Made by a program: the position numbers and the translations under genes
IMG/VR virus record: IMGVR_UViG_3300030020_000050
Span: 1-41,758 of that record
DNA from: a virus
DNA length: 41,758 nt
Direction: 5' to 3' (one strand)
Part shown: positions 16,497 through 41,593 of the stretch, piece by piece
How the letters are laid out: the number at the start of each line of letters is the position of its first letter
Position numbering within the stretch: position 1 is the stretch's first letter
Notes under the pieces: model-generated
What the model saw: only the letters and a program-made list of their open reading frames with translations
Database searches by the model: none
Told to the model about the DNA's origin: nothing

Positions 16497-17201
16497 CTAG
16501 AGGTCGGTGACAACGTCAGCTTCGCCCGCTTCGCGCAGGAGAAAGTCCAACGTCTCGGAGGGGAGCCAGACCACCTGCGGGTAGTCGGTTCCCCACGAAT
16601 TGAGGAGAGGTACTGCCCAAGCACCGGGGCGCCCGAGTGCGGTGAGGACTTCCTGCGTGTCCTGTGTCCACCTGTGAACCGTTGCCAGCTTTTCAGCCGG
16701 CCCGTCAGCCTGCGCGTTGCGTTCAGCGACCAGGGCTTTCTGCGGACGGATCCCGTCAGCTTCGAGCACCCTGACAACCGAGTGATTCGTAGTACCCTCG
16801 CCTTCGGGGTACGTGCCGTCCATCTTTCTTGCCTCGTCGTACAGCAGCAGGGCGTCATACGTGACGCCGTGGATCAACGTCTGAGCGTGAGCGTGGCCGA
16901 AGCCCTCACACGCCCCTTCCTGCCCCTGGTTGTAGAACGTCTGCCAAGCGGCCTGGAGGAGTTTCACCTGGCCCATCGCAGCGAGACATGTGCAATGTCC
17001 ACCGCGAGCGGGAGACTTGATTTCCTTCACGAACGGCAGATGCCACGAGCCGTCCGCAGTCTGTTTCGGGGTGTCGAACTCGGGGAACCAGAGCGTGCCG
17101 ATTGTCGCCGGAGTCGGGACAGTCGGAGGTGCAGCGCTCAGCGGTTTCGCCGCGATGTGGTCGAAGTTGTCAGGCGTCAGCCTTCCGAGAGACCGGATCA
17201 T
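16497..17201 (-). CDS. Papain-like (C1-type) cysteine peptidase homologue
   Basis: This encodes 234 residues from ATG 17201, chosen because GGGAG is five bases upstream; GTG 17207 would add two residues. NQGQEGACEGFGHAHA has the catalytic-Cys pattern of papain-like peptidases (Cys98). LLNSWGTDY near residue 200 is the Asn-Ser-Trp-Gly motif, and WLPSETLDFLL follows as in the family. The usual Gly-His-Ala before NSWG is absent; the segment reads RPGAWAVPLLNSWG. It may be inactive or use another His. It sits inside the lysis cassette, so peptidoglycan peptide cleavage is one idea; a virion role is another. Confidence 0.7.
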   Translation of the reverse strand: MIRSLGRLTPDNFDHIAAKPLSAAPPTVPTPATIGTLWFPEFDTPKQTADGSWHLPFVKEIKSPARGGHCTCLAAMGQVKLLQAAWQTFYNQGQEGACEGFGHAHAQTLIHGVTYDALLLYDEARKMDGTYPEGEGTTNHSVVRVLEADGIRPQKALVAERNAQADGPAEKLATVHRWTQDTQEVLTALGRPGAWAVPLLNSWGTDYPQVVWLPSETLDFLLREAGEADVVTDL

Positions 17202-17460
17202 TGTCACTCCCTATGTGGATCACGCCGTCGTTCGGCACGCCCGGGTGGTGTATGTGGCAGAACTTGAGGTGGTCGTGCGTGAACCGGCCCATCTTGTGAC
17301 AGCCCGTCTCGTGACATTCGACATGGTGGTATGCACCGCCGAGGAGACCGATGAGGGCGCCGAGCTGGAGCACGGTGAGGAGTTCCATCCAGCTCGTGAT
17401 GACGACCGGCTGGCCGGCCTGCGGAGCCTGGCTGATGAAGTGCAGCGTCGCCAGTATCAA
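17170..17460 (-). CDS. Cys/His-rich single-span membrane protein
   Basis: The frame supports 96 residues from TTG 17460, which overlaps the previous TGA; ATG 17388 would give 72. A hydrophobic segment (MELLTVLQLGALIGLLGGAY) precedes a cluster of Cys and His (HHVECHETGCHKMG, then HDHLKFCHIHHP), likely one zinc site on the side of the membrane facing the C-terminus. Small phage proteins of this layout are known in lysis regions. It probably works with the neighbouring holin-like proteins. The start is uncertain. Confidence 0.6.
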   Translation of the reverse strand: MILATLHFISQAPQAGQPVVITSWMELLTVLQLGALIGLLGGAYHHVECHETGCHKMGRFTHDHLKFCHIHHPGVPNDGVIHIGSDNDPVSRKADA

Positions 17461-17759
17461 TGGGCCGTCGCCATCACGTAGACGAGGTAGCCGAGCGCAG
17501 CGGAAGCTGTGCAGGCAGTCCATATCTTTGCGATGAACGCACCGGCGCCTTCGCTCCGAGCTTCGCCTCGCTCAAGGGCAGAGATGCGAGCCTCCACCGC
17601 GATACGGCCAGCCTCACGAGCAGCGTCGAGCCGCTCAATGTCAGCACGGTCCGCCTTCGCGTCGAGCTTCGAGGTCATCACCGCGAGAGCGGTGTCGAGC
17701 TTCTGCTCAAGGCGTGCGAGGGTTTCCGACAGTAGCTGCCAAGCCTGGGCTTCGGTCAT
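17457..17759 (-). CDS. XhlA-like coiled-coil/membrane protein
   Basis: This encodes 100 residues; the ATG at 17759 overlaps the previous TGA. A long coiled coil (LLSETLARLEQKLDTALAVM through ARISALERGEARSEG) is followed by one C-terminal span (WTACTASAALGYLVYVMATA). This is the plan of haemolysin XhlA-type proteins that help holins in some Gram-positive phages. Function is inferred from layout and position at the start of the lysis cassette. Confidence 0.62.
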   Translation of the reverse strand: MTEAQAWQLLSETLARLEQKLDTALAVMTSKLDAKADRADIERLDAAREAGRIAVEARISALERGEARSEGAGAFIAKIWTACTASAALGYLVYVMATAH

Positions 17760-18376
17760 CAGTACCCCGCCGCAATGTAGTTCACATTGATTTGCTGCTC
17801 GACGTTGTTGTCGATTACCACACGCCCCGCTCCGGCGGATTCCACCGAGGCGGCAGCGAGGTCCATGCCCGCGTTGTTGACAGTACCGTAAGCCACGGCA
17901 ACAAAGCTGACACAGGCAGTCGGAAAGGTGTAGCTCAGAGGGATGCTGGATTCAAGCCAGCCTGCGGAGCGCGCTCCGAGGTTATGTGCCCCGGCCTGGA
18001 TTTTCAGGGCTGTCCCATTGTCAGCGATGAGGTTGGCTTCGATCTTCCCGCGAGTGACGGCTTCCGGCTCAAGCTGAGACGTGCCAACCGATTCGGCGGC
18101 AAGCTGGGTCGCCGTGATGCCAGAGTTCACCGCGATCCAGTTGGTCCCGTTGTCCCACCAGACAATGCCGTTGTTCGCGGTAGTCGTGTCACCCTGTACC
18201 ACGTACAGCCGGCCGCGCGTGTAGGGGGCGCCCGGACGTGCAGCCAGGGTGCCCTGCCCACCTTCGACATCATTGTCGAGCGCTTCCGCCAGGGCCTCCA
18301 TGTCCGTAGCGACTTTCGGAGCATCCGTGGTTTTCGGATACGGCAACGAGCGCCGCGTAGTTTTACCTGTAGCCAT
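17759..18376 (-). CDS. Tail fibre or fibre-tip protein (putative)
   Basis: This encodes 205 residues from ATG 18376, with GAGGGG upstream. It has features of phage fibre proteins: KVATDMEALAEALDNDVEGG, RLYVVQGDTTTANNGIVWWD, GTNWIAVNSG, then a beta-rich C-terminus (GWLESSIPLSYTFPTA). It lies directly after the tail protein I homologue, where fibres are usually encoded. It may bind the host surface or form an adaptor for another fibre. No chaperone gene is seen. Confidence 0.65.
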   Translation of the reverse strand: MATGKTTRRSLPYPKTTDAPKVATDMEALAEALDNDVEGGQGTLAARPGAPYTRGRLYVVQGDTTTANNGIVWWDNGTNWIAVNSGITATQLAAESVGTSQLEPEAVTRGKIEANLIADNGTALKIQAGAHNLGARSAGWLESSIPLSYTFPTACVSFVAVAYGTVNNAGMDLAAASVESAGAGRVVIDNNVEQQINVNYIAAGY

Positions 18377-20973: not shown

Positions 20974-23121
20974 CTATGGGTATCCGGCGGGCATCTTGCC
21001 TTTGACAGGGACCGAGGCGTTCTCGACACCCTGTTTAGCCCCGAGTTTCCCGAGGAGGTTGTTGAAGCTCACCCCGGCAGCGCTCATTTCCACGTCACCC
21101 TTGCCCGTCACCTGACCAAGGGAAGCCGCGAGGGTTTCCTGCGGGCCGCCGCCACCCCAGCCGCTCTCGCTGTTCGGAGAGGCAGGATGCAGGTAGGCGA
21201 TCGGTTCGCCCGCTTTGACGGGTTCCCCGACTTTCTTTTCGCTGGTGATGTTCTCAGCGTGGTAGATGTGCTTGCCCGCGTAAGGTCCGCTCGTGAGCGT
21301 GTAGCCCAAGAACCATCCGTCTTCCCAGCCGGGAGCGTGTTCGGAGCAGTAGACGATCCCATCGCCCATTGCCACGATCCACCCTGAGCCTGCGAAGTCC
21401 ACGCCCATGTCCACGCGCTCAGGCGTGAGATTTTGGATCTTGGCGAACGGGTTGACATAGCCTTCGACTTTGCTCGAACCGGGCTTGCCTTCTTCTTCCG
21501 CTTCCGTGACGCCACCCGAAGCAGCAGGCTCCAGGCGCGGCGGGAGGGTCTTCTCCAGGGTGACGGTGATCGCATCGCTGCGGTCGAGGATGTCAAGGGA
21601 CACGTTGGACACGACCCAGTTGCCATTCGCGGGACCGACGCCCTTGACGGAGCAAAGCTCGCCAGGTTGAGCAGCCCAGAGCGACGCGCGACCAGAGACC
21701 TTGATCGTGGCAATGCCGTCTCGGGCACCGATGCTCACGTCAGGCTCAACCCAGTCCACGCCATTCTTGCCACGCTCGACTTCCATTTTCACTTTCTGCT
21801 CCGTCAGCAGGTATTCACCCGAGACGTACCAGAGAGCGTTGTTGCGGACGAACGCGAACCAGGACACTTCCGACGCGAGGCGCTGGATGCAGTCCCATGT
21901 AGTCTCGCGGGGGCCACGAGAGAACGAGTAGACACCGGGAGTGACAGGGCCAGTCAGCCCTTCCGTCGAGGCGGTCACTCCATACACCCGGACCATATGT
22001 TCGGCTTCGGCTTTCGAGGGGCCGTAGTCCCCATTGCCAGAAGTGGCTTTGCCGGCGCCCGACTCCTGCACAGCCTGAGCCATTTCGGAGGTGTTGTAGT
22101 GGGTGTTGCCTGTCTCCATCTGGATGGCGCCGCCGTTGCCGGAGTAACCATTGACGAGGAACCCTTGGACCTGATCCTGGATCGTGGTCCCGTAGGTGGT
22201 GAGGTTCCCCGGTTCGAGCTGGAAGTAGTTAGGGGAGAGCTTGCCCGCTTCCGACTCCACGCAGAGCGCCTGGAGCATTGCCACCTGCGCCTTGAAGTGC
22301 GCTTTGAGTTCGACGGCCTCTTCGAGCGCTTCGTTCAGGATCTTCAACTGGCTCGTGGTCGCCGGGGCACCCTTCACGGTGATGCCGTCGGACGGCCCCA
22401 GGTTTTTCCCGGAGGATTCTTTCAGGTCGGTAGCGGTTTCCGCGAGAGTCGTGACAGCGATTGGCTGAGCTGCCTTTTCCTCCGGGATGTATGCGCCGAT
22501 GTTGACTTTCTGGTGGCGCGATGCAGCAGTCACGAGTTCGTGAACGAAGCCGGCGCGTGTCACCTTGCCGCGTTCGCGGATGATTGCTTCGCCCACCTCT
22601 TCCCGGAGCTGCGCTGCAACCCGGTCTTCAAAGGACAGTTCGAGCTTGGATTCCGTAACACGGAACCCCATGAGCCGGAACCAGATCCCGTCAAGGTTGA
22701 AGTCGATCGGGCGCTGCGGGAGGATCCACTCTTCTTCGTCTTCTTCCCCGTACCGCCCTGATTTCGAGGAGTCGGTGATGCTCCGCCGGGAGAACGTCTT
22801 GGCGGAGGACTTGCTCACGTCTTCCTTCTTGAACATCCACTTGGCAAAGAAGGGATGGTTGAGCAGCTCGAATTTGGGATCCTCGCAGACCAGCTTGATC
22901 GTCGAGGCGCCGGTGATTGTCAGTTCGACAGCCGCACTCTCAAGCGCGCCCATGACATTCCAGTCGTGAACATGCTTACCGTCCGGTTCGACAATCGTGA
23001 CCTTGGGATCCACGATCTCGCATTTCGTCAGATCGAAGGCATGGTTGACACGGTGTTCGGACCGTTCAAAGCGAGCCTGCTCAGCCTGATACAAGACGAC
23101 CGCTGCCGTAGGCTTACCCAT
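20974..23121 (-). CDS. Tail hub protein with C-terminal degenerate M23-like domain
   Basis: This encodes 715 residues from ATG 23121. The N-terminal 480 residues look like a gpD/gp27-type hub (DPKVTIVEPDGKHVHDW, WDCIQRLASEVSWFAFVRN, LWYVSGEYLL, IKVSGRASLWAAQPGE). From about residue 555 there is an M23 peptidase-like fold: TPERVDMGVDFAGSG, IVAMGDGIV, IYHAEN near 618, GEPVKAGEPIAYLH. The first zinc His of HxxxD is Asp here, so the domain is probably not an active peptidase, or it is a glycan-binding remnant. The hub joins tube and spike and passes through the cell envelope. Confidence 0.78.
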   Translation of the reverse strand: MGKPTAAVVLYQAEQARFERSEHRVNHAFDLTKCEIVDPKVTIVEPDGKHVHDWNVMGALESAAVELTITGASTIKLVCEDPKFELLNHPFFAKWMFKKEDVSKSSAKTFSRRSITDSSKSGRYGEEDEEEWILPQRPIDFNLDGIWFRLMGFRVTESKLELSFEDRVAAQLREEVGEAIIRERGKVTRAGFVHELVTAASRHQKVNIGAYIPEEKAAQPIAVTTLAETATDLKESSGKNLGPSDGITVKGAPATTSQLKILNEALEEAVELKAHFKAQVAMLQALCVESEAGKLSPNYFQLEPGNLTTYGTTIQDQVQGFLVNGYSGNGGAIQMETGNTHYNTSEMAQAVQESGAGKATSGNGDYGPSKAEAEHMVRVYGVTASTEGLTGPVTPGVYSFSRGPRETTWDCIQRLASEVSWFAFVRNNALWYVSGEYLLTEQKVKMEVERGKNGVDWVEPDVSIGARDGIATIKVSGRASLWAAQPGELCSVKGVGPANGNWVVSNVSLDILDRSDAITVTLEKTLPPRLEPAASGGVTEAEEEGKPGSSKVEGYVNPFAKIQNLTPERVDMGVDFAGSGWIVAMGDGIVYCSEHAPGWEDGWFLGYTLTSGPYAGKHIYHAENITSEKKVGEPVKAGEPIAYLHPASPNSESGWGGGGPQETLAASLGQVTGKGDVEMSAAGVSFNNLLGKLGAKQGVENASVPVKGKMPAGYP

Positions 23122-33241: not shown

Positions 33242-34777
33242 CTAGTTCTGGATGCGTGAAACGCGGACGGCCTCGGTGACGTTCTTCTCCTGAGCGCCAT
33301 TGCCATCCGGACCTGCACCTGGGGCTTCGGGGGTGACGGGGACGATCCCGAACTCCGTGGAGTTTTCGTCGAGACCCATCGCCTTCTTCATCGCCTTCCA
33401 CCTCTTGATCGTGTCCGGGTCCGCTCCGATCTCCTCGAAGAGGGCCTGCTGTGGGACGCCGATCGTTGACAGCTTGATTGCGCCGTCAATGCGCTGCGAC
33501 CTGATGCGCTGCTCCGGGTCTCCCCAAACAGTCTTCACAGGATCTTTGGCCTTAGCCTCGTCGCCGGCGGCACGGAACGCGAGACGGATTGTCTCGTTCC
33601 ACGTACCCTCAAAGTCCGTTTTCTTGGACTTGACCTTGGCAACAAGGCCGGTCTCTGTGGCCGTCAGGGAGTCGCCCGAAGGAAACGCACCAGACTGGCC
33701 AAGGAGGTAGTGAGGAGGAGTCCTCGTCAATGCCGCGATGTGCTGAATCAGCATCTCGATCGCTTGCACGTAGTTCCGGAGGTCCGTGGCCTCGAACTGG
33801 CCAAACTTCGCCTCCGGGTGCTCCGACACCCACACGCGGCCGACAGACGCGAGAAACTGCTCGTCTGTCAATGCACGGCCCGTCTCCGGGTCTCTCGGAA
33901 CTTCAAGTCCAGTAGCCCAACGCTGAGCGAACGACGCGAACTCGGACGCGATCATCATGTCCGAGACGAGCTTGTTCACGGCGTCCTGCACCGGGATGAC
34001 CACCGCAATGTCAGAACGACCACCGACCGCGAGAGTCGGGTTGTTCCGGAGCGGGATCAGCGATACGACTTTCAGCCGGTTCGGGGTGCAGAACGGGGCG
34101 TCCTTACGGGGCACCCACTCGATCCCATTGCCAGCGCCGGTGGTGGGGCTGTTCAGGTAGTCCGTGGGTGTCCACAGGCCAGACACCGCGAGACCACGCT
34201 CTTCCTCGTGGCCCTTCTCCTCCGCTTCGTAGCGGTAGGTGGCGTCCGGCAGGTAGACCGTTGCCAGGATCCTGCCCTGGTGATCGACCCACTCTTTCAG
34301 GCCGGCGACCCTGAGACGCGGATTCGCAGCGTCATGCAGGACGATCGCCTGCGTCGGGTGCTCGATCGTGATGAGCGGACTCTCCGTGTCATACGCCTTG
34401 TTGCCATCGGGGTCCACCAGGATGTAGGCGTGGCCGAGCTTGACAGCCTCCGTGTGCGCCATACGGCAGTCGGCGTCCAGGTAGTTGTCCTGCCAGATGC
34501 GGGTCGCTTCCTCGTCGGCCTCATCCGCGCCTGTGCCTGAGCGGAAGCCGTTGATGATGAGACGCTCGACAGAGGCGTCCACGATCAGCTCGCACCAGTT
34601 GTCAGCGAACTCCCGGAAGAGATTGCCGAACGTGGCCCGGAAGCGAGACGTTGCGAACTGGAGGCGGTGAATCCCCTCGTAGTAGTTCTCCCACAGTTGG
34701 ATCTGCGGGTTGCGCGCCTTGAGTTTCTGATCCATGTGGATCAGGTACAGCTTGGCTTCCGCTGGCGTCGAGGCCAT
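33242..34777 (-). CDS. Portal protein (SPP1 gp6-like)
   Basis: This encodes 511 residues from ATG 34777 (MASTPAEAKLYLIHMDQK). ENYYEGIHRL, NWCELIVDASVERLIINGFR, then AYILVDPDGNKAY, QDAVNKLVSDMMIASEFASF and LTRTPPHYLLGQSGAFPSGD are the signature of the SPP1 gp6/Gp6-portal family. SDSLTATETGLVAKVKSKK-like stretch follows near the crown. The portal is the dodecameric vertex for DNA packaging and neck attachment. TerL lies just upstream. Confidence 0.93.
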   Translation of the reverse strand: MASTPAEAKLYLIHMDQKLKARNPQIQLWENYYEGIHRLQFATSRFRATFGNLFREFADNWCELIVDASVERLIINGFRSGTGADEADEEATRIWQDNYLDADCRMAHTEAVKLGHAYILVDPDGNKAYDTESPLITIEHPTQAIVLHDAANPRLRVAGLKEWVDHQGRILATVYLPDATYRYEAEEKGHEEERGLAVSGLWTPTDYLNSPTTGAGNGIEWVPRKDAPFCTPNRLKVVSLIPLRNNPTLAVGGRSDIAVVIPVQDAVNKLVSDMMIASEFASFAQRWATGLEVPRDPETGRALTDEQFLASVGRVWVSEHPEAKFGQFEATDLRNYVQAIEMLIQHIAALTRTPPHYLLGQSGAFPSGDSLTATETGLVAKVKSKKTDFEGTWNETIRLAFRAAGDEAKAKDPVKTVWGDPEQRIRSQRIDGAIKLSTIGVPQQALFEEIGADPDTIKRWKAMKKAMGLDENSTEFGIVPVTPEAPGAGPDGNGAQEKNVTEAVRVSRIQN

Positions 34778-34932: not shown

Positions 34933-36684
34933 CTAGTAGACCGTCATCGGGACGCGCGAGATGAGGTTGACATTCACCCCAGCCGCTATTGCGTCTCGAT
35001 ACGCCTCCCACGAAAGACAGCCGGCCATTGCCGCGTCGATCTTGAGAGGAGAGTCAGGTCGCTCCTTACGGATAAGGAACAGGTTGACCCCGTCTTCGTC
35101 AAGGATGGGTATGGCGTACTTTCTGGCATTCGCAAGATGCGCCCTGAAAACAGGGTTGCCGTCATACGTCCACACTCCCTCCTTCATCCCGGCGATATAC
35201 GCCTTCAAGGAGAGGGCCATCCTCTTGTGTGTGTTCGTGGGCCATTGGAAAACGCGGGGATGTCCACGTTCTTTCCCACGCTTGTGCGGGTACTTCGCTA
35301 CCCATTCGGCAACGTGCGTATCCCAGTAGTAGGGATCGGCGTACATCCGCCAGACATCCCAGTAGTCGAACGCAGACGCGACCGCCGCATCCACCTCGTC
35401 GGCGGGTACAGACCAGTTGTCCTGAGTGCCGGGGTTAGCCCAGCACGCATACAGGGCTTGACGGCCAGTAGCGAGATCAGTCACCACGATCGCCGTGGTG
35501 TCCCGCGTCTGAGCACCATCGAAGCCCAGGACGACCTTCGCGCCCCTGGGAGGCAGGTACCCCTCCAATACGTCTTTGTCAATCATGTCGAGTGGGAACG
35601 CCTGGAGAGACTGCTGTACCGGCCTGTTCAGCCAGACGCGCTCCCAGTAGGCCATGTCGGTCTGAGGATCCAGACCAAGCTCGACAATGGCGTCAATGTC
35701 CGTCCACGAAGAAGCCGGGCCAGACGCATCAATGACGGCGGCCCGCATTCCCCCGATGTTCGGCGTGCTGTCCTCGTTCCGGAGAACGTGGTGATCGTCG
35801 GCCTGCCGGTGGTAGAAGAACAGCCGGGAGTCCTTGATCTTGTCTTCCGCCACCATGCGGGCGTAATCCATCGTCCCTTCGGCAACCGAGCCGAGTCCCG
35901 GCTCGAACGCCGTAGTGATCTCCAGAGTCCACGCATCCGCAGCTTTACGCTTCGGGATGTTCGCCAACATGGTCTGGTGCGACGCGACGAGTTTTTCCGT
36001 TGTCATACGGTGTGTCTCGTCGAAGATGTTTAGGGTTGTCCTAGCACCATCTCTAGAATCCGGGGACGAGGCGAGTGCGACGGCCTTTCCCGCAGCTTTT
36101 CCTCCAGGATCCAGCACAAGGATGCGTTCGTTGCCAATGTCAAAGTCAGCAGCGAGCGGGCCTTCTTCAAGCATGACTTTGAGAGCGCCATAGGCAAGCT
36201 CCTCACTCTGATCCTCCGTGTAGGCAACCATCGGGATATACGGGTCGAAGACACCCACGCCGACGGGCTCGCCGGCCGCATACTTGTACGGGCGCCACAA
36301 GCCGTTCTCATCGACGTAGTCCCACTCCGATTCCTCGCCCTCCTCGGCCCAATGGTCGAAGCGGACAGGTGCGGCGGGGTGCAGCTCGCCGGCGGTCACA
36401 GCCGCCGCGAACTCGGTCTTGGCCCAGCCCTTCCGGACAGACAGCCCGACCCGCTTGAACCGGCGGCGGCCAGAGATGTCCAGCCCCTCCGGGGTCATGG
36501 TGCCAGGGGCCTGGAGTTCGTAGGCCATGTGGAGGATCGCGGCCTTCTCGATGTCAAGCGAGTATTTCTGGCCTCGGATGTCTCCCGGACCGTGGACTAG
36601 GTACGACTCCATCCAGCACTTGATCTGCGGGCCAAGCGTGATACCTGTGCGGTTATCCCGTTTCGGGATTACGAAGACGCCCAT
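34933..36684 (-). CDS. terL: Terminase large subunit
   Basis: This encodes 583 residues from ATG 36684, which overlaps the TerS stop (TAATG); the longer upstream reading is in the TerS gene and is rejected. A Walker A-like segment VRKGWAKTE is at about 83-91, and Walker B with catalytic Glu NIFDET at about 219-224. The nuclease part starts VVLGFDGAQTRDTTAIVV (Asp389) and continues RMYADPYYWD and KIDAAMAGCLSWEAY. TerL cuts and pumps phage DNA into the capsid through the portal. Confidence 0.93.
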   Translation of the reverse strand: MGVFVIPKRDNRTGITLGPQIKCWMESYLVHGPGDIRGQKYSLDIEKAAILHMAYELQAPGTMTPEGLDISGRRRFKRVGLSVRKGWAKTEFAAAVTAGELHPAAPVRFDHWAEEGEESEWDYVDENGLWRPYKYAAGEPVGVGVFDPYIPMVAYTEDQSEELAYGALKVMLEEGPLAADFDIGNERILVLDPGGKAAGKAVALASSPDSRDGARTTLNIFDETHRMTTEKLVASHQTMLANIPKRKAADAWTLEITTAFEPGLGSVAEGTMDYARMVAEDKIKDSRLFFYHRQADDHHVLRNEDSTPNIGGMRAAVIDASGPASSWTDIDAIVELGLDPQTDMAYWERVWLNRPVQQSLQAFPLDMIDKDVLEGYLPPRGAKVVLGFDGAQTRDTTAIVVTDLATGRQALYACWANPGTQDNWSVPADEVDAAVASAFDYWDVWRMYADPYYWDTHVAEWVAKYPHKRGKERGHPRVFQWPTNTHKRMALSLKAYIAGMKEGVWTYDGNPVFRAHLANARKYAIPILDEDGVNLFLIRKERPDSPLKIDAAMAGCLSWEAYRDAIAAGVNVNLISRVPMTVY

Positions 36685-37223
36685 TACTGGTACAGGACAT
36701 CGGTCGGATCCGCAGTCGGCGCTGACAGGGGCAGCTCGACAATGTCGGCGTCCGTCAACGTGACATCCACGCGCTTCGTGTTCCGCTTCCTCGTCTTCGA
36801 GGTGGTCTCCTCCGTCTCGGCAATGACCCAGTCCAGGGACCGGCGTGCCATCGGCGTGAGGCCGTACTGCTTGATGAGGGCGTCGATGTTGCTCGACACC
36901 ATTGTCGTAGACCGGCCGTCCTCGAACCGCTCCCAATACTCGGTTTCCAGGGCGACGAGACGAATCAGCGTGGGGATGTCAACCCCGAGGAACTCATCCA
37001 CCATCTCGGAAGACCACAGGGCCTCCCACAGGTAGAGTGCGTTCGGGTGCCAATCCGCAGGTTCACGGACCGTTATCGTCTCGCCGTCTTCTTTGACCTT
37101 GACAACCCGGTACCGCTGGGGCAGCTCGGGCTTGACATTCGGTGATGTGACAACGAGCGCCGTCGCGGTGCTCACTTGGTTCCGGCGTGCCCGTGCAGAC
37201 GGGTGCTTGGGGTAAGGGGGCAT
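36684..37223 (-). CDS. terS: Terminase small subunit (putative)
   Basis: This encodes 179 residues from ATG 37223. Position directly before terL and features of P27-like small terminases support it: a basic N-terminus (PKHPSARARRNQ), WHPNALYLWEALWSSEMV, LIRLVALETEYWERF and QYGLTPMARRSLDWVI. It would recognise the packaging site. A pac or cos site is therefore expected near here, but none was identified. Confidence 0.8.
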   Translation of the reverse strand: MPPYPKHPSARARRNQVSTATALVVTSPNVKPELPQRYRVVKVKEDGETITVREPADWHPNALYLWEALWSSEMVDEFLGVDIPTLIRLVALETEYWERFEDGRSTTMVSSNIDALIKQYGLTPMARRSLDWVIAETEETTSKTRKRNTKRVDVTLTDADIVELPLSAPTADPTDVLYQ

Positions 37224-37237
37224 CGCGCCCTCCTGTG

Positions 37238-40120
37238 TTAGCTAGGTTGCCGGACAACCACGGCATACGCCTGTGGCACAGTCACCTTCGAGTAGATCGG
37301 GTGCGGGGTACTGACCTGCGCGTACAGCCGGCGCATCGTGATGACTGCGAACGAGTGTCGGCGGGCAATCGTCAGACGGAGCTGTTCACCGGCACCCGTT
37401 ACGCCAAGTGATAGCGACATCTGGCCCCTGACGGGTCCCTGCGAGTGTCCATTGACACCGAGGGTCTGCGAGAGCGCGCCGGCGGTAGAACGGACAACCC
37501 TTGTCCGTGTTGCCAGGCCGAGAGGCATTCCGAGGAGCGACTGGCCGACATCGCCCTTCCCGCCATGCCCCGAGACCGAGATCACGGCCTTCAGGGATCC
37601 TGTGGCCGTCCTGACCGAAGAAGTCTTCGACTGCTCACCGATTGGCAATGAGATCGACCCAGATGCCGTTCTGTACGAGTTGACCTTCGAGGACAACCCA
37701 AACGGCAGCGCAGCGCGCCCTTCGCCTTCTCCCGTGAAGGAGAGGATGAACTTTCCGACTTCTTCCCGGACCGTTTTGCCTTCTGGCCCGGTTTTCGCCC
37801 AGTATGTGAACGAATGGCCTTTTTCGATGATCGAGCGGTATTCGCTCGACCTGCCTTCGCCCTGGAGCTTCAAGTTGAAGTTTTCAACCTGGCTATTCGG
37901 GATCAGGTCTTCGTTCGAGTTGAAGAGCAGCCACCGAGCGCCACTAACGGTGCCCTGCTGCGGAGAGGCGCGTTCCTGGGCGCGGCGAGATTCCGCAGCG
38001 TTCGTAAACGGCCCATGCCCGAGGTTCGTAACGCCTTTTTCCCCGGTGAAGGGCGACGTGTAAACCATCTGCTCCTGGAGCGCCTCCTGTACGTGTTCCG
38101 TGAGGTTATTGACGCTTTTCGTCGGCCAGGTCAGTTCCTTGTACGGTTCGCCCGATTCCATCAGTTCGACCAAGGCACGAATGTCGTAGATACCTGACAA
38201 TGTGCAGACACCGTCGATCGTGCCGGGGTTCGCCGCGTTCATGCGCTCAGCGACCATCGAGACAATGTGACCTCCAGCCGAGCCACCAACCAGGACGACG
38301 TGAGGGTTGGCAATCAGGTTCAGTTCAGACGTATGAGCGAGCGCCCAGTTGACAGACGCTTCGATGTCTTCAAACTGACCAGGGAAGGCACCTTCCGTGG
38401 AGGAAGCGTCCCGGTAGTTCGGGAGGATGACCGTGCCAACCCCATCTTTGTAGAGGTTGTTGGCATACGTGCCGGTCATTTCCCATTGTTCATCCACCCA
38501 GCCACCGCCGTGAACCATCACCACGAGGGTCTGCTGGAGCGTTTTCGGCACGTAGGTTTTGACAACCTGATTCGTGCCGGCGCCGTAGCGACCAGCCGAG
38601 CTGAACCCCGAGCCTTCGATGCCGAGCGGGAAGCTCATGGCACCCAACGCCGAGCGGACCGTGTGGACCGTGGAACTCAGGTTGAGCGGGAGCGACTGGC
38701 CCGTGCGGACGAGATGGCCGAAGCCAGAGGTGCCGACTTGGACAGGGTTGTGGATCTGCCCGGTTGTCGTGCGGCTAGAGGAAGTCTTACTGGCCAGGGC
38801 TACAGGGACGGAGAGTTCGCCCTTGTGTTCCGGTCCGGGGTAGCCCAGGATGACCACATTGGCCCAGCCGAGCTTTTCTTTTTCGACCCATTCGCCAGAG
38901 GCGACTTCACCAGCTTTCTTCCCTTTTTTGGCGGGGCCGGTGAAGTACGGGGTGGCGCCTTCCGTGGAAGTGCTGAGTTCCATCTGCTGCGTGAGGGTGC
39001 CCGAGATGGAGCGGATCCACAGGAAGCTGCTCTGGCCGGGGTAGATAATCCCCGTCTGAGTGAATTCGACGAAGAGGGCTTTGCCTTTTTCAGGGGCGTG
39101 TTTGACGGTCCCCTTGGCAATGACCGTTTTGCCGGGTTTCGCGCCTTCGTCGCTCAGGATGGCGAATTCAAATTCGCCTTCGGCAGCCGCGACAGACGGA
39201 GTGATCCGGAGCTGCTCGGCCTTCCAGACTTTTTTGAACGTGGGGAGTTTGACCGCGAACGGGGTATCGCTGGCGGCCTGGACCGCTTTGCCCGCGTTGA
39301 TCGGTTCCGATTCCGGGGCAGCGTCCTGGAGGGGGCCGTGGCCCGCACCTTCCGGCAGGTCGATGACGAGGCTGATCGCGCCGGCCGTGCCGAAGCTCGA
39401 CTTGGCACCAGAGGACGAAACGGACAGGACCGCGCCCAACGCGCCGGCCACCCGAGTCACGCGTTTCGCGCCGACAGACGACAGGCCAAGCGGCAGACCG
39501 AGCGCACCCTTGGCTTCTCCGGACTTGTGGCCCGTGGAGGCTACGCTGAGGGCCGCGCCGAGGGCACCAGCAGCGCTCCTAACGGACTTCGTCGCCGTCG
39601 CCGTACCAACCGGCAGCCCGAGCGCCCCAGCCGTCCCTTTGGCCGTTTCTTCGGTGCCGAGGACAGCGGTGTAGAACTGACCCGTCAGCGTTTTTTCAGC
39701 CCATTCCGTCGCTTCGGACGGTTTTTCGATTTTCGCCGGGACTTTGTTTTTCAGGATTGTCGATTCGCCGTGCGCCTCAAGGTACAGCGCGCCGCCGAAC
39801 GGGATGATGACTTCCCAGTATTCTTTCGCCGTACTCAGGACGCCGGATTTCACAGACCCATTGACAAGGATCCATTTTTCCTTCGCCGGCGTTCCCGTGT
39901 ACGTCGCTTCCGCAACTACAGCGCCAGGATGTCCGCCCGTGTTTTCGCAGATAAAGACCTTGAACGAGGTACAGGTAGGAAGCGAAGACCCCGTCCGGAG
40001 TTCAAACGATTCGGCGGTCCCGTTTTTCAGCGGCGTGAATTTCTGCGCGTACCCGACCTTTTCCGAGATAGCGGTGTTCGTCCCGGAGACGAACGTCTGT
40101 GTGCCGGCCAGTAGCGACAT
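37238..40120 (-). CDS. Repeat-rich virion protein with embedded alpha/beta-hydrolase esterase
   Basis: This encodes 960 residues from ATG 40120, with GGGGAGA upstream. Order: beta-sandwich (about 20-150); four or five units of about 20 residues (165-255, GALGLPLGL type); a second beta-sandwich (285-430) that resembles the first; a second repeat array (434-510); an esterase (515-795) of the HSL/carboxylesterase kind; a third array (800-915); a C-terminal region with RHSFAVITMRRLYAQV. Esterase marks are HGGGW (537-541), GGSAGG with Ser614, Asp738 in SNEDLIP and His769 in EKGHSF, a full triad. It probably deacylates a host surface polymer or lipid. It lies between two small structural genes and TerS, so a virion fibre or surface role is inferred. 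Confidence 0.82.
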   Translation of the reverse strand: MSLLAGTQTFVSGTNTAISEKVGYAQKFTPLKNGTAESFELRTGSSLPTCTSFKVFICENTGGHPGAVVAEATYTGTPAKEKWILVNGSVKSGVLSTAKEYWEVIIPFGGALYLEAHGESTILKNKVPAKIEKPSEATEWAEKTLTGQFYTAVLGTEETAKGTAGALGLPVGTATATKSVRSAAGALGAALSVASTGHKSGEAKGALGLPLGLSSVGAKRVTRVAGALGAVLSVSSSGAKSSFGTAGAISLVIDLPEGAGHGPLQDAAPESEPINAGKAVQAASDTPFAVKLPTFKKVWKAEQLRITPSVAAAEGEFEFAILSDEGAKPGKTVIAKGTVKHAPEKGKALFVEFTQTGIIYPGQSSFLWIRSISGTLTQQMELSTSTEGATPYFTGPAKKGKKAGEVASGEWVEKEKLGWANVVILGYPGPEHKGELSVPVALASKTSSSRTTTGQIHNPVQVGTSGFGHLVRTGQSLPLNLSSTVHTVRSALGAMSFPLGIEGSGFSSAGRYGAGTNQVVKTYVPKTLQQTLVVMVHGGGWVDEQWEMTGTYANNLYKDGVGTVILPNYRDASSTEGAFPGQFEDIEASVNWALAHTSELNLIANPHVVLVGGSAGGHIVSMVAERMNAANPGTIDGVCTLSGIYDIRALVELMESGEPYKELTWPTKSVNNLTEHVQEALQEQMVYTSPFTGEKGVTNLGHGPFTNAAESRRAQERASPQQGTVSGARWLLFNSNEDLIPNSQVENFNLKLQGEGRSSEYRSIIEKGHSFTYWAKTGPEGKTVREEVGKFILSFTGEGEGRAALPFGLSSKVNSYRTASGSISLPIGEQSKTSSVRTATGSLKAVISVSGHGGKGDVGQSLLGMPLGLATRTRVVRSTAGALSQTLGVNGHSQGPVRGQMSLSLGVTGAGEQLRLTIARRHSFAVITMRRLYAQVSTPHPIYSKVTVPQAYAVVVRQPS

Positions 40121-40152: not shown

Positions 40153-40773
40153 CTAGGCTGCGGTTTTCGAGTCGTCCCACACGTTTTCGGTGATGGTGTA
40201 CGCCTGTTCCGATTCAAAGGTTTCCGGCGTAGCCACCTTGTTGACCGCGAGGCATTCTCCAGCCGCGACCGCTTCCCCTTCGTAGAACACGATGTAGGTC
40301 ACGACGATTTTGCCAGCGCCCGAAGCGCCCGGCACTTTGAATTCTTTGCTCGTGGTGTCCTTGATGACGCCCTTCGCAGCAGCAGCCCACGTAGTCGGGT
40401 TCCGCTTGTTGGCTTCCGCCGATTTGTTCTTCACCGCGATCTCTTTGACCTGGGCGAATTTGAACGCGCCAGCGACCGTGCCAGTCCATTCCTCGATCGG
40501 CCCGCCTTCGGTCTGCGAGACCGTGACGTTTTCCGCTTCCGCCGTGACAACGAAGTAGAAGCGACCTTCGACGAGCGTGTTCGCTTCCGACGTGTTCACG
40601 TAGATGATGTTGTTGGCAACCAGCCCGTGACCGGCCGTCAGTTTGATCTTCTTTTTTTCCACGTCTCCCGTGGCGGTGAATTCTTTGTACGCTTCCGCGA
40701 GCGAGCAGAATTTCGCTTTGCCCGTGATCGTCGTCAGGGCCGCGTTCTTGAGCGTGCCACCAACTGCTGACAT
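40153..40773 (-). CDS. Virion structural protein (putative)
   Basis: This encodes 206 residues from ATG 40773, with AGGAG upstream. It starts MSAVGGTLKNAALTTITGK and is beta-rich with many Val, Thr and Lys (KIKLTAGHGLVANNIIYVNT, GRFYFVVTAEAENVTVSQ, KIVVTYIVFYEGEAVAAGE). It resembles capsid-decoration or tail-shaft-like proteins. It is the third gene of the late operon, next to the 960-residue protein, and may be its partner. No family is recognised. Confidence 0.62.
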   Translation of the reverse strand: MSAVGGTLKNAALTTITGKAKFCSLAEAYKEFTATGDVEKKKIKLTAGHGLVANNIIYVNTSEANTLVEGRFYFVVTAEAENVTVSQTEGGPIEEWTGTVAGAFKFAQVKEIAVKNKSAEANKRNPTTWAAAAKGVIKDTTSKEFKVPGASGAGKIVVTYIVFYEGEAVAAGECLAVNKVATPETFESEQAYTITENVWDDSKTAA

Positions 40774-40856: not shown

Positions 40857-41180
40857 TCAGGCCGGCGCGAAGCTGATCGTGCCTTTCAGGGGCGGCAGCA
40901 CTTCCGTTGCCGATTCTTCGATGTCCAGCACGAAGTTGAGCTGCGGCGCCGGGGCTTCCGAAGTCTGAATTGGAGTCAGCTTGACTTCGACCGTCCCAGC
41001 GGCAGCATTGACAGTCAGGCCATTGCCAGAGGTCAGCACCAACCAGTCGGCGCCAAACGTCAAGCGGACCGTCATGTTCGTCAGCGTCAGGACTTTCGAG
41101 TGGGCCGCGTCTTCAAACAGCGCGATCGAGAAGCGGCAGGTACGGCCACGGGTGGCTTCGATGTATTCGAGCTGGCTCAT
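40857..41180 (-). CDS. Small beta-rich structural protein (putative)
   Basis: This encodes 107 residues; the ATG at 41180 overlaps the TGA of the previous gene. It has a beta-sandwich pattern with alternating strands (KVLTLTNMTVRLTFGADWLV, TVEVKLTPIQTSEA, LNFVLDIEESATEVL). It pairs in tandem with the next upstream gene, which has a like fold pattern. It may be a small fibre or baseplate part. No family is recognised. Confidence 0.58.
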   Translation of the reverse strand: MSQLEYIEATRGRTCRFSIALFEDAAHSKVLTLTNMTVRLTFGADWLVLTSGNGLTVNAAAGTVEVKLTPIQTSEAPAPQLNFVLDIEESATEVLPPLKGTISFAPA

Positions 41181-41593
41181 AGCGTCTCGATCGGGGCCAG
41201 GGGCGCCTCACCGGGCGCTGAGAGGACGCTGATCTTGCCGGCGGCGAGCGTGAACACGTCACCGTCCGCGAGCTTCGCTGTGACCGTGTAGTCGTAGTCG
41301 CCTTCGTTGAGCTGTTCGGTCTCGACCGAGGACAGTTCGATTGACGCGGTTGAGACGGGCGACGGTGTAGACGGGACCACCTGAGTCCAGACCACGGGAC
41401 TCGACCCGTAGATGTTGGAGTCGTCGTAGCCGACCGTCATCGTCAGCGTCGAGCCGGCCAGGTTCGGATACCAGCTCGCCCACCATTTCAGGGCGCGCGA
41501 CTCCGCAGCCTTGTACGAATCACCTTTGGTGATCTCCTGATGCGTGGCAATAGGCGCTTCGGGCACAGGAGCCTCCAGGTAGGTAGCGCTCAA
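41177..41593 (-). CDS. Beta-rich structural protein, first gene of the late operon
   Basis: This encodes 138 residues. The start is TTG 41593, which has no clear ribosome site; the next Met is well inside the fold, so the start is uncertain. The sequence has beta strands (STLTMTVGYDDSNIYG, ASIELSSVETEQLN, DYDYTVTAKLADGDV). It and the next gene look like small immunoglobulin-like virion parts. It overlaps that gene by 4 bases. Confidence 0.58.
   Translation of the reverse strand: MSATYLEAPVPEAPIATHQEITKGDSYKAAESRALKWWASWYPNLAGSTLTMTVGYDDSNIYGSSPVVWTQVVPSTPSPVSTASIELSSVETEQLNEGDYDYTVTAKLADGDVFTLAAGKISVLSAPGEAPLAPIETL

Follow-up and report, generated by a model that had tools for sequence, protein, structure and literature searches.

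Esterases on phage fibers are already known, and most of them are SGNH enzymes of phages with Gram-negative hosts. Protein gp63.1 of coliphage G7C deacetylates LPS, and SGNH fibers of Klebsiella prophages are active on pNP-acetate (PMC13123978). Tailspikes of Acinetobacter prophages carry SGNH esterases (PMC12115436), and receptor-binding proteins (RBPs) of the streptococcal 5093 group have an esterase fold (PMC9863714). The locus described here resembles the SGNH/GDSL fibers and tailspikes, for which acetyl removal from surface glycan was shown or proposed, in that an ester-cleaving domain would be carried on a receptor-binding fiber. It differs in the fold (SGNH there, an alpha/beta-hydrolase with an HGGG motif here), and the known proteins act on Gram-negative hosts and are encoded at the usual tail locus. 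The streptococcal proteins represent an esterase fold in the RBP of a Gram-positive phage; their esterase is C-terminal and at the tail tip, and the likeness concerns the esterase fold at large.

Arthrobacter phage Seahorse (cluster AY) came up in a Foldseek search against viral models. Its gp33 (MH910041, 694 aa) is also an actinophage protein with tandem N-terminal beta domains (judged by eye) and an alpha/beta-hydrolase, encoded by a gene at the fiber position. However, this hydrolase is S33-like and not Abhydrolase_3, it is C-terminal, and it has no flanking repeats. The gene follows the lysis genes instead of preceding the gene for the terminase small subunit (TerS), and tblastn gave no match between gp33 and the 960-aa protein of our locus. 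At the same place Arthrobacter phage Bridgette encodes gp30 with Mtd_N and GDSL domains (RefSeq "tail fiber protein"). Actinophages therefore already exchange esterase folds on fiber-position proteins. No carboxylesterase is annotated in Arthrobacter phage Tiff81, a relative of Seahorse. As a separate observation, Arthrobacter cluster AY phages (L067, 5324–8232; L068, 4704–6918) swap alpha/beta-hydrolase and GDSL domains on fiber-position genes, and next door, on the opposite strand, they have another, stand-alone esterase whose fold matches.

The 960-aa protein and its gene neighborhood

The window, which is the whole stretch of DNA analyzed, is a virus record of 41,758 bases. It encodes tail sheath, tube, tape measure, baseplate and endolysin proteins, and the sheath, tube, tape measure and baseplate genes indicate a contractile tail. 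The closest proteins to its terminase large subunit (TerL) were those of actinophages, at about 40% identity. Judged by its genes, the virus is thus contractile-tailed and actinophage-like, and the actinophage-like genes together with related metagenome contigs suggest that it came from soil. A genome scan with TerL gave only distant Bifidobacterium matches, while a portal search in 396 genomes of the phylum of Bifidobacterium detected portals with up to 48% identity. One contig of an actinobacterial genome with matches to TerL, portal, sheath and tube had no fiber cluster before TerS.

The late genes run leftward, from two small proteins through the 206-aa protein, the 960-aa protein, TerS, TerL and portal to scaffold and capsid:

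41177–41593, minus strand: small PHROG_1084-type protein (PHROG match), first late-operon gene in the contig
40857–41180, minus strand: second small protein of 107 aa, probably of the PHROG_1084 sort (44% to a 114-aa PHROG_1084 match of the relative L008)
40153–40773, minus strand: 206-aa protein, weak matches to fiber protein gp80 of podophage GP4 and to a PHROG head protein
37238–40120, minus strand: 960-aa repeat-built, putative appendage (fiber-like) protein with embedded esterase (ORF; contigs from other metagenomes)
36684–37223, minus strand: TerS, Terminase_7 (Pfam)
34933–36936, minus strand: TerL, longest ORF, conserved part 34936–36600 (PHROG/homology)
33242–34777, minus strand: portal protein, SPP1 Gp6-like (Pfam)

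The 960-aa gene starts with ATG, 5 nt downstream of a purine-rich GGGGAG, is co-oriented with the late genes and ends 14 nt before TerS. The initial annotation had described a repeat-built late structural protein beside the terminase; the repeats and the location in a late (structural) operon next to the terminase were borne out, and the same arrangement was present in a diverged relative. A short tail-fiber-like gene already occupies the usual tail position (17759–18376), which would make the 960-aa protein a supplementary appendage.

Some neighboring genes deserve mention in their own right. TerS was matched by PHROG_226 "minor tail protein", a family that is probably mislabelled. Between the tail-fiber gene and the endolysin, a 236-aa protein (16500–17207, minus strand) has papain-like motifs (QGQEGACEGF, NHSVV, LLNSWG) and matched the peptidase family PHROG_16701 at 1.5e-4; it may be a virion or lysis cysteine peptidase. 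A protein of 715 aa that is encoded after the tape measure region (20974–23121, minus strand) had no PHROG match, and its C-terminal part is weakly M23-peptidase-like (E 0.05).

From the N- to the C-terminus, the 960-aa protein consists of N1, repeats, N2, repeats, esterase, repeats and C-tail:

39650–40120, minus strand: N1, beta-type domain, residues 1–157 (33% identity to the N-domain of the relative L008/L033)
39335–39649, minus strand: first repeat block, about five 20-residue units, residues ~157/158–262 (autocorrelation, lag 20/41)
38831–39334, minus strand: N2, diverged second copy of the N-domain, residues 263–430 (match to N1)
38579–38830, minus strand: second repeat block, about four 20-residue units, residues about 430–514 (autocorrelation)
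37736–38578, minus strand: alpha/beta-hydrolase (Abhydrolase_3/BD-FAE), putative esterase domain, residues 515–795 (Pfam, PHROG_3341, AF2 and Foldseek)
37385–37729, minus strand: third repeat block, about six 20-residue units, residues 798 to about 912–915 (autocorrelation)
37241–37384, minus strand: C-terminal tail, residues 913–960, resembling the tail of the relative (STPHPIYSKVTVPQAY versus TTPAPLFGSIQVPARIP in the alignment)

Repeats of about 20 residues on both sides of the esterase, as noticed initially, were confirmed by a period of 20 residues with an autocorrelation z of 6.6 when the three blocks were joined. N1 (about 1–157) and N2 (about 263–430) are diverged duplicates (blastp 2e-4, phmmer 1.2e-4). 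Inspection by eye revealed no obvious signal peptide. When the whole protein and its N-terminal half were compared by tblastn to 50,697 phage records, no match was obtained. The searches against solved structures yielded no homologue for the repeats or the N-domains (best match of the N-domain 0.005, a PSII protein) and nothing meaningful for the 206-aa neighbor. No homology to a known fiber anchor domain was detected in the 960-aa protein; the 206-aa neighbor is weakly gp80-like. AF2 modelling of the full protein without an alignment gave a pLDDT of 32.

The embedded hydrolase domain

The domain exceeded the Pfam gathering cut-offs of both Abhydrolase_3 (65.3 bits, cut-off 25; E-value 8.8e-18) and BD-FAE (64.8 bits, cut-off 26.8; 1e-17), and it matched PHROG_3341 "esterase" at 3e-12. 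A GDSL/SGNH profile match was not found in the 960-aa protein by the Pfam search, which returned Abhydrolase instead. The residues expected for catalysis and an insertion were located as follows:

38501–38512, minus strand: HGGG oxyanion-hole motif, residues 537–540 (HGGGW 537–541), invariant in the A7 alignment
38279–38281, minus strand: candidate nucleophile Ser614 in GGSAGG, residues 612–617 (motif and A7 alignment)
37943–38149, minus strand: insertion/cap, residues 658–726, also present in the relative but not in stand-alone phage esterases
37907–37909, minus strand: triad Asp738 in NEDLIPN, aligned with the Asp of the relative (KDLIE)
37814–37816, minus strand: triad His769 in KGHSFTY, invariant in the A7 alignment

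The A7 alignment has 12 rows, namely the domain of the window and eleven homologues from phage contigs, and served as AF2 input for residues 508–807. The HGGG motif and Ser, Asp and His (537–540, 614, 738, 769) occur in the HSL-like order, so that the initial annotation of a complete HSL-type triad at residues 515–795 was correct in its coordinates and in every motif residue, and the Pfam result agrees with it. The pair HGGG[WF]...GxSAGG at its natural spacing did not occur in any of 200,000 shuffles of the 960-aa protein.

Modelling and structure searches had also been proposed for this domain, and both pointed to the same fold. AF2 with the A7 alignment predicted an alpha/beta-hydrolase for residues 508–807 with a pTM of 0.71 and a core pLDDT of mostly 70–96; the insertion 658–726 was poorly modelled (pLDDT <50). 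The best PDB matches of this model in Foldseek were HSL-family esterases (E about 1e-9, probability 1.00, TM 0.5–0.6). In the profile search against structures, the acetyl xylan esterase 6xyc and another carbohydrate esterase ranked first (3e-37). The scores for the NCBIfam HSL equivalogs LipP1 (52 vs. 350 bits) and HaHSL_fam (44 vs. 320 bits) were far below the cut-offs, and we therefore consider the domain as related to these equivalogs but not as a member. According to profiles and model, residues 515–795 are an alpha/beta-hydrolase fold of the HSL-like Abhydrolase_3/BD-FAE group and a putative esterase.

In fold, HGGG, GxSAGG, Asp and His the domain resembles the bacterial HSL/BD-FAE esterases EstDL136 (6iey), EstE1 (2c7b), brefeldin A esterase (1jkm) and acetyl xylan esterase (6xyc). 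While those are free enzymes, the domain of the window sits within a repeat protein, has the insertion common to its relative and has Gly before the Ser. In the HSL motif, the residue preceding the nucleophilic Ser is usually Asp, Glu or Thr; Gly precedes Ser614. The esterases of mycobacteriophages Courthouse, MiaZeal and Minerva are phage-encoded alpha/beta-hydrolases as well, but they are separate, unfused genes with about 25% identity over half the domain. Escherichia phage Perceval and ctokW459 also encode esterases, which were considered as fiber fusions and rejected because both genes stand alone.

Relatives and turnover of the esterase module

The domain was found at 100% in contigs from three other metagenomes, two of which contain the full 960 aa and the third residues 76–960. 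A 47-kb relative (L008/L033) with a TerL of 76% identity shares the gene order of the window, and its corresponding locus encodes a protein of 730 aa. This protein comprises N1 (33%), few repeats, the esterase (31%), repeats of period 18 and a similar C-tail; by tblastn between the two genes, only N1 and the esterase could be aligned. HGGG, Ser, Asp and His are all kept in the esterase of the relative at 31–33% identity. Identity between window and relative was 76% for TerL, 68% for portal and 58% for capsid, and the appendage gene diverges far faster, as expected for receptor-binding proteins.

Two more distant relatives (TerL about 64%) encode repeat-built proteins of 380 aa (L009) and 524 aa (L012) near TerS, both without esterase. 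The comparison of the L012 repeat protein to solved structures gave one match that looks low-complexity and nothing meaningful. Upstream of TerS, L012 additionally encodes a GH5 protein (585–2054) that is cellulase-like and starts with a signal-like N-terminus; it is a candidate plant-polymer enzyme. Since the esterase is kept in the relative with 76% TerL identity and missing in the two further ones, these sequences suggest a module that may be present or absent in a rapidly evolving appendage protein, whose gene lies near the beginning of the late operon, ahead of TerS.

The initial annotation had called the whole arrangement unfamiliar. This was overstated: esterase-bearing fibers and tailspikes are well known (SGNH/GDSL), and Arthrobacter actinophages carry GDSL or alpha/beta-hydrolase proteins at the fiber position. 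The position before TerS was found here only in a few close relatives. What is new in the present case is the HSL/BD-FAE class of the esterase, its insertion within a shaft of repeats, its occurrence in a contractile actinophage-like virus and a gene position ahead of TerS.

Proposed function and alternative explanations

The 960-aa protein shows features that fit a receptor-binding fiber or tailspike: location in a late structural operon, a repeat shaft and rapid divergence. We consider it fairly probable that it is a virion appendage (fiber) with an HSL/BD-FAE esterase that would process an acylated host-surface polymer at adsorption. The two N-terminal beta-type domains would probably serve as anchor or in glycan binding, and about fifteen 20-residue beta repeats would form a presumably trimeric shaft with the esterase inserted between two repeat blocks. 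During adsorption the shaft would position the esterase at the surface of the cell. There Ser614, polarized by His769 and Asp738, would attack acyl esters, with HGGG as the oxyanion hole stabilizing the tetrahedral intermediate. Short acyl esters, most likely acetyl, on surface polysaccharide or glycolipid would be cleaved. This would expose or release the receptor, and the phage could recognize it, move along it or detach from it. Deacylation of host glycan or lipid by a virion-borne esterase, as suggested initially, is thus plausible from the sequence. We infer catalysis, presence in the virion, the substrate and attachment to the tail rather than to the head in the same way.

The appendage might instead be a fiber or decoration attached to the capsid, whose esterase would aid binding to acylated soil or cell polymers, or release from them, and would not process the receptor itself. 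The grouping of the gene with TerS, TerL, portal and capsid, the match of the 206-aa neighbor to a PHROG head protein (1.2e-5) and the existence of a tail-fiber-like gene elsewhere (17759–18376) are in line with such a head fiber. But the same neighbor also matches GP4 fiber gp80, below the Pfam cut-off, and in phage L036 a homologue of the PHROG_1084-type protein adjoins TMP-like and fiber-like genes, and we regard head attachment as unlikely. Loss of catalysis, leaving a mere binding module on the fiber, appears very unlikely: the motif reads GGSAGG/AGSAGC and not G(D/E/T)SAGG, but the conservation of the complete triad and of HGGG between two proteins that share just 31% identity suggests that catalysis is under selection.

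BD-FAE is a bifunctional acetylxylan/feruloyl esterase. This family is among the two best Pfam matches and carbohydrate-esterase structures are the best profile matches, so the virus could help its host to digest plant polysaccharide, with the beta domains as carbohydrate-binding modules. The GH5 gene that L012 has near TerS, with its signal-like N-terminus, would fit, and a soil virus GH5 was demonstrated to be active (PMC6786970), providing a precedent. An auxiliary role is possible but less likely because the esterase is fused to a long repeat shaft with fiber-like domains, lacks an obvious secretion signal and is encoded in the late structural operon; very fast divergence and virion-like neighbors also argue against it, and we give this role a low probability. 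Esterases of the Abhydrolase_3/BD-FAE group are common in bacteria, and a bacterial esterase could have been joined to a phage gene by assembly or chance. An assembly chimera was excluded because contigs from three other metagenomes carry the domain at 100%, two of them with the full protein, and because the diverged relative has the same architecture; we attribute practically no probability to an artefact.

Returning to the esterase-bearing fiber, a different esterase family in an appendage shaft, retained in one diverged relative but not in others, suggests that removal of surface esters is an adsorption strategy that recurs and can be swapped in the actinophage-like group too. In its widest form the proposal is tentative and rather doubtful: in contractile actinophage-like viruses, a repeat-shaft fiber whose gene precedes the terminase would carry an HSL/BD-FAE serine esterase as an exchangeable catalytic module, and this enzyme would open infection by deacylating host surface glycan or glycolipid. 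We found no prior description of such a virion enzyme class. The analysis names a precise serine, Ser614, as candidate nucleophile.

A stand-alone relative of the domain was also observed: in large environmental phages, a BD-FAE-like esterase gene directly follows a ClpP-like protease gene and is kept in two contigs (L028, 9242–10648; L041, 7242–8648).
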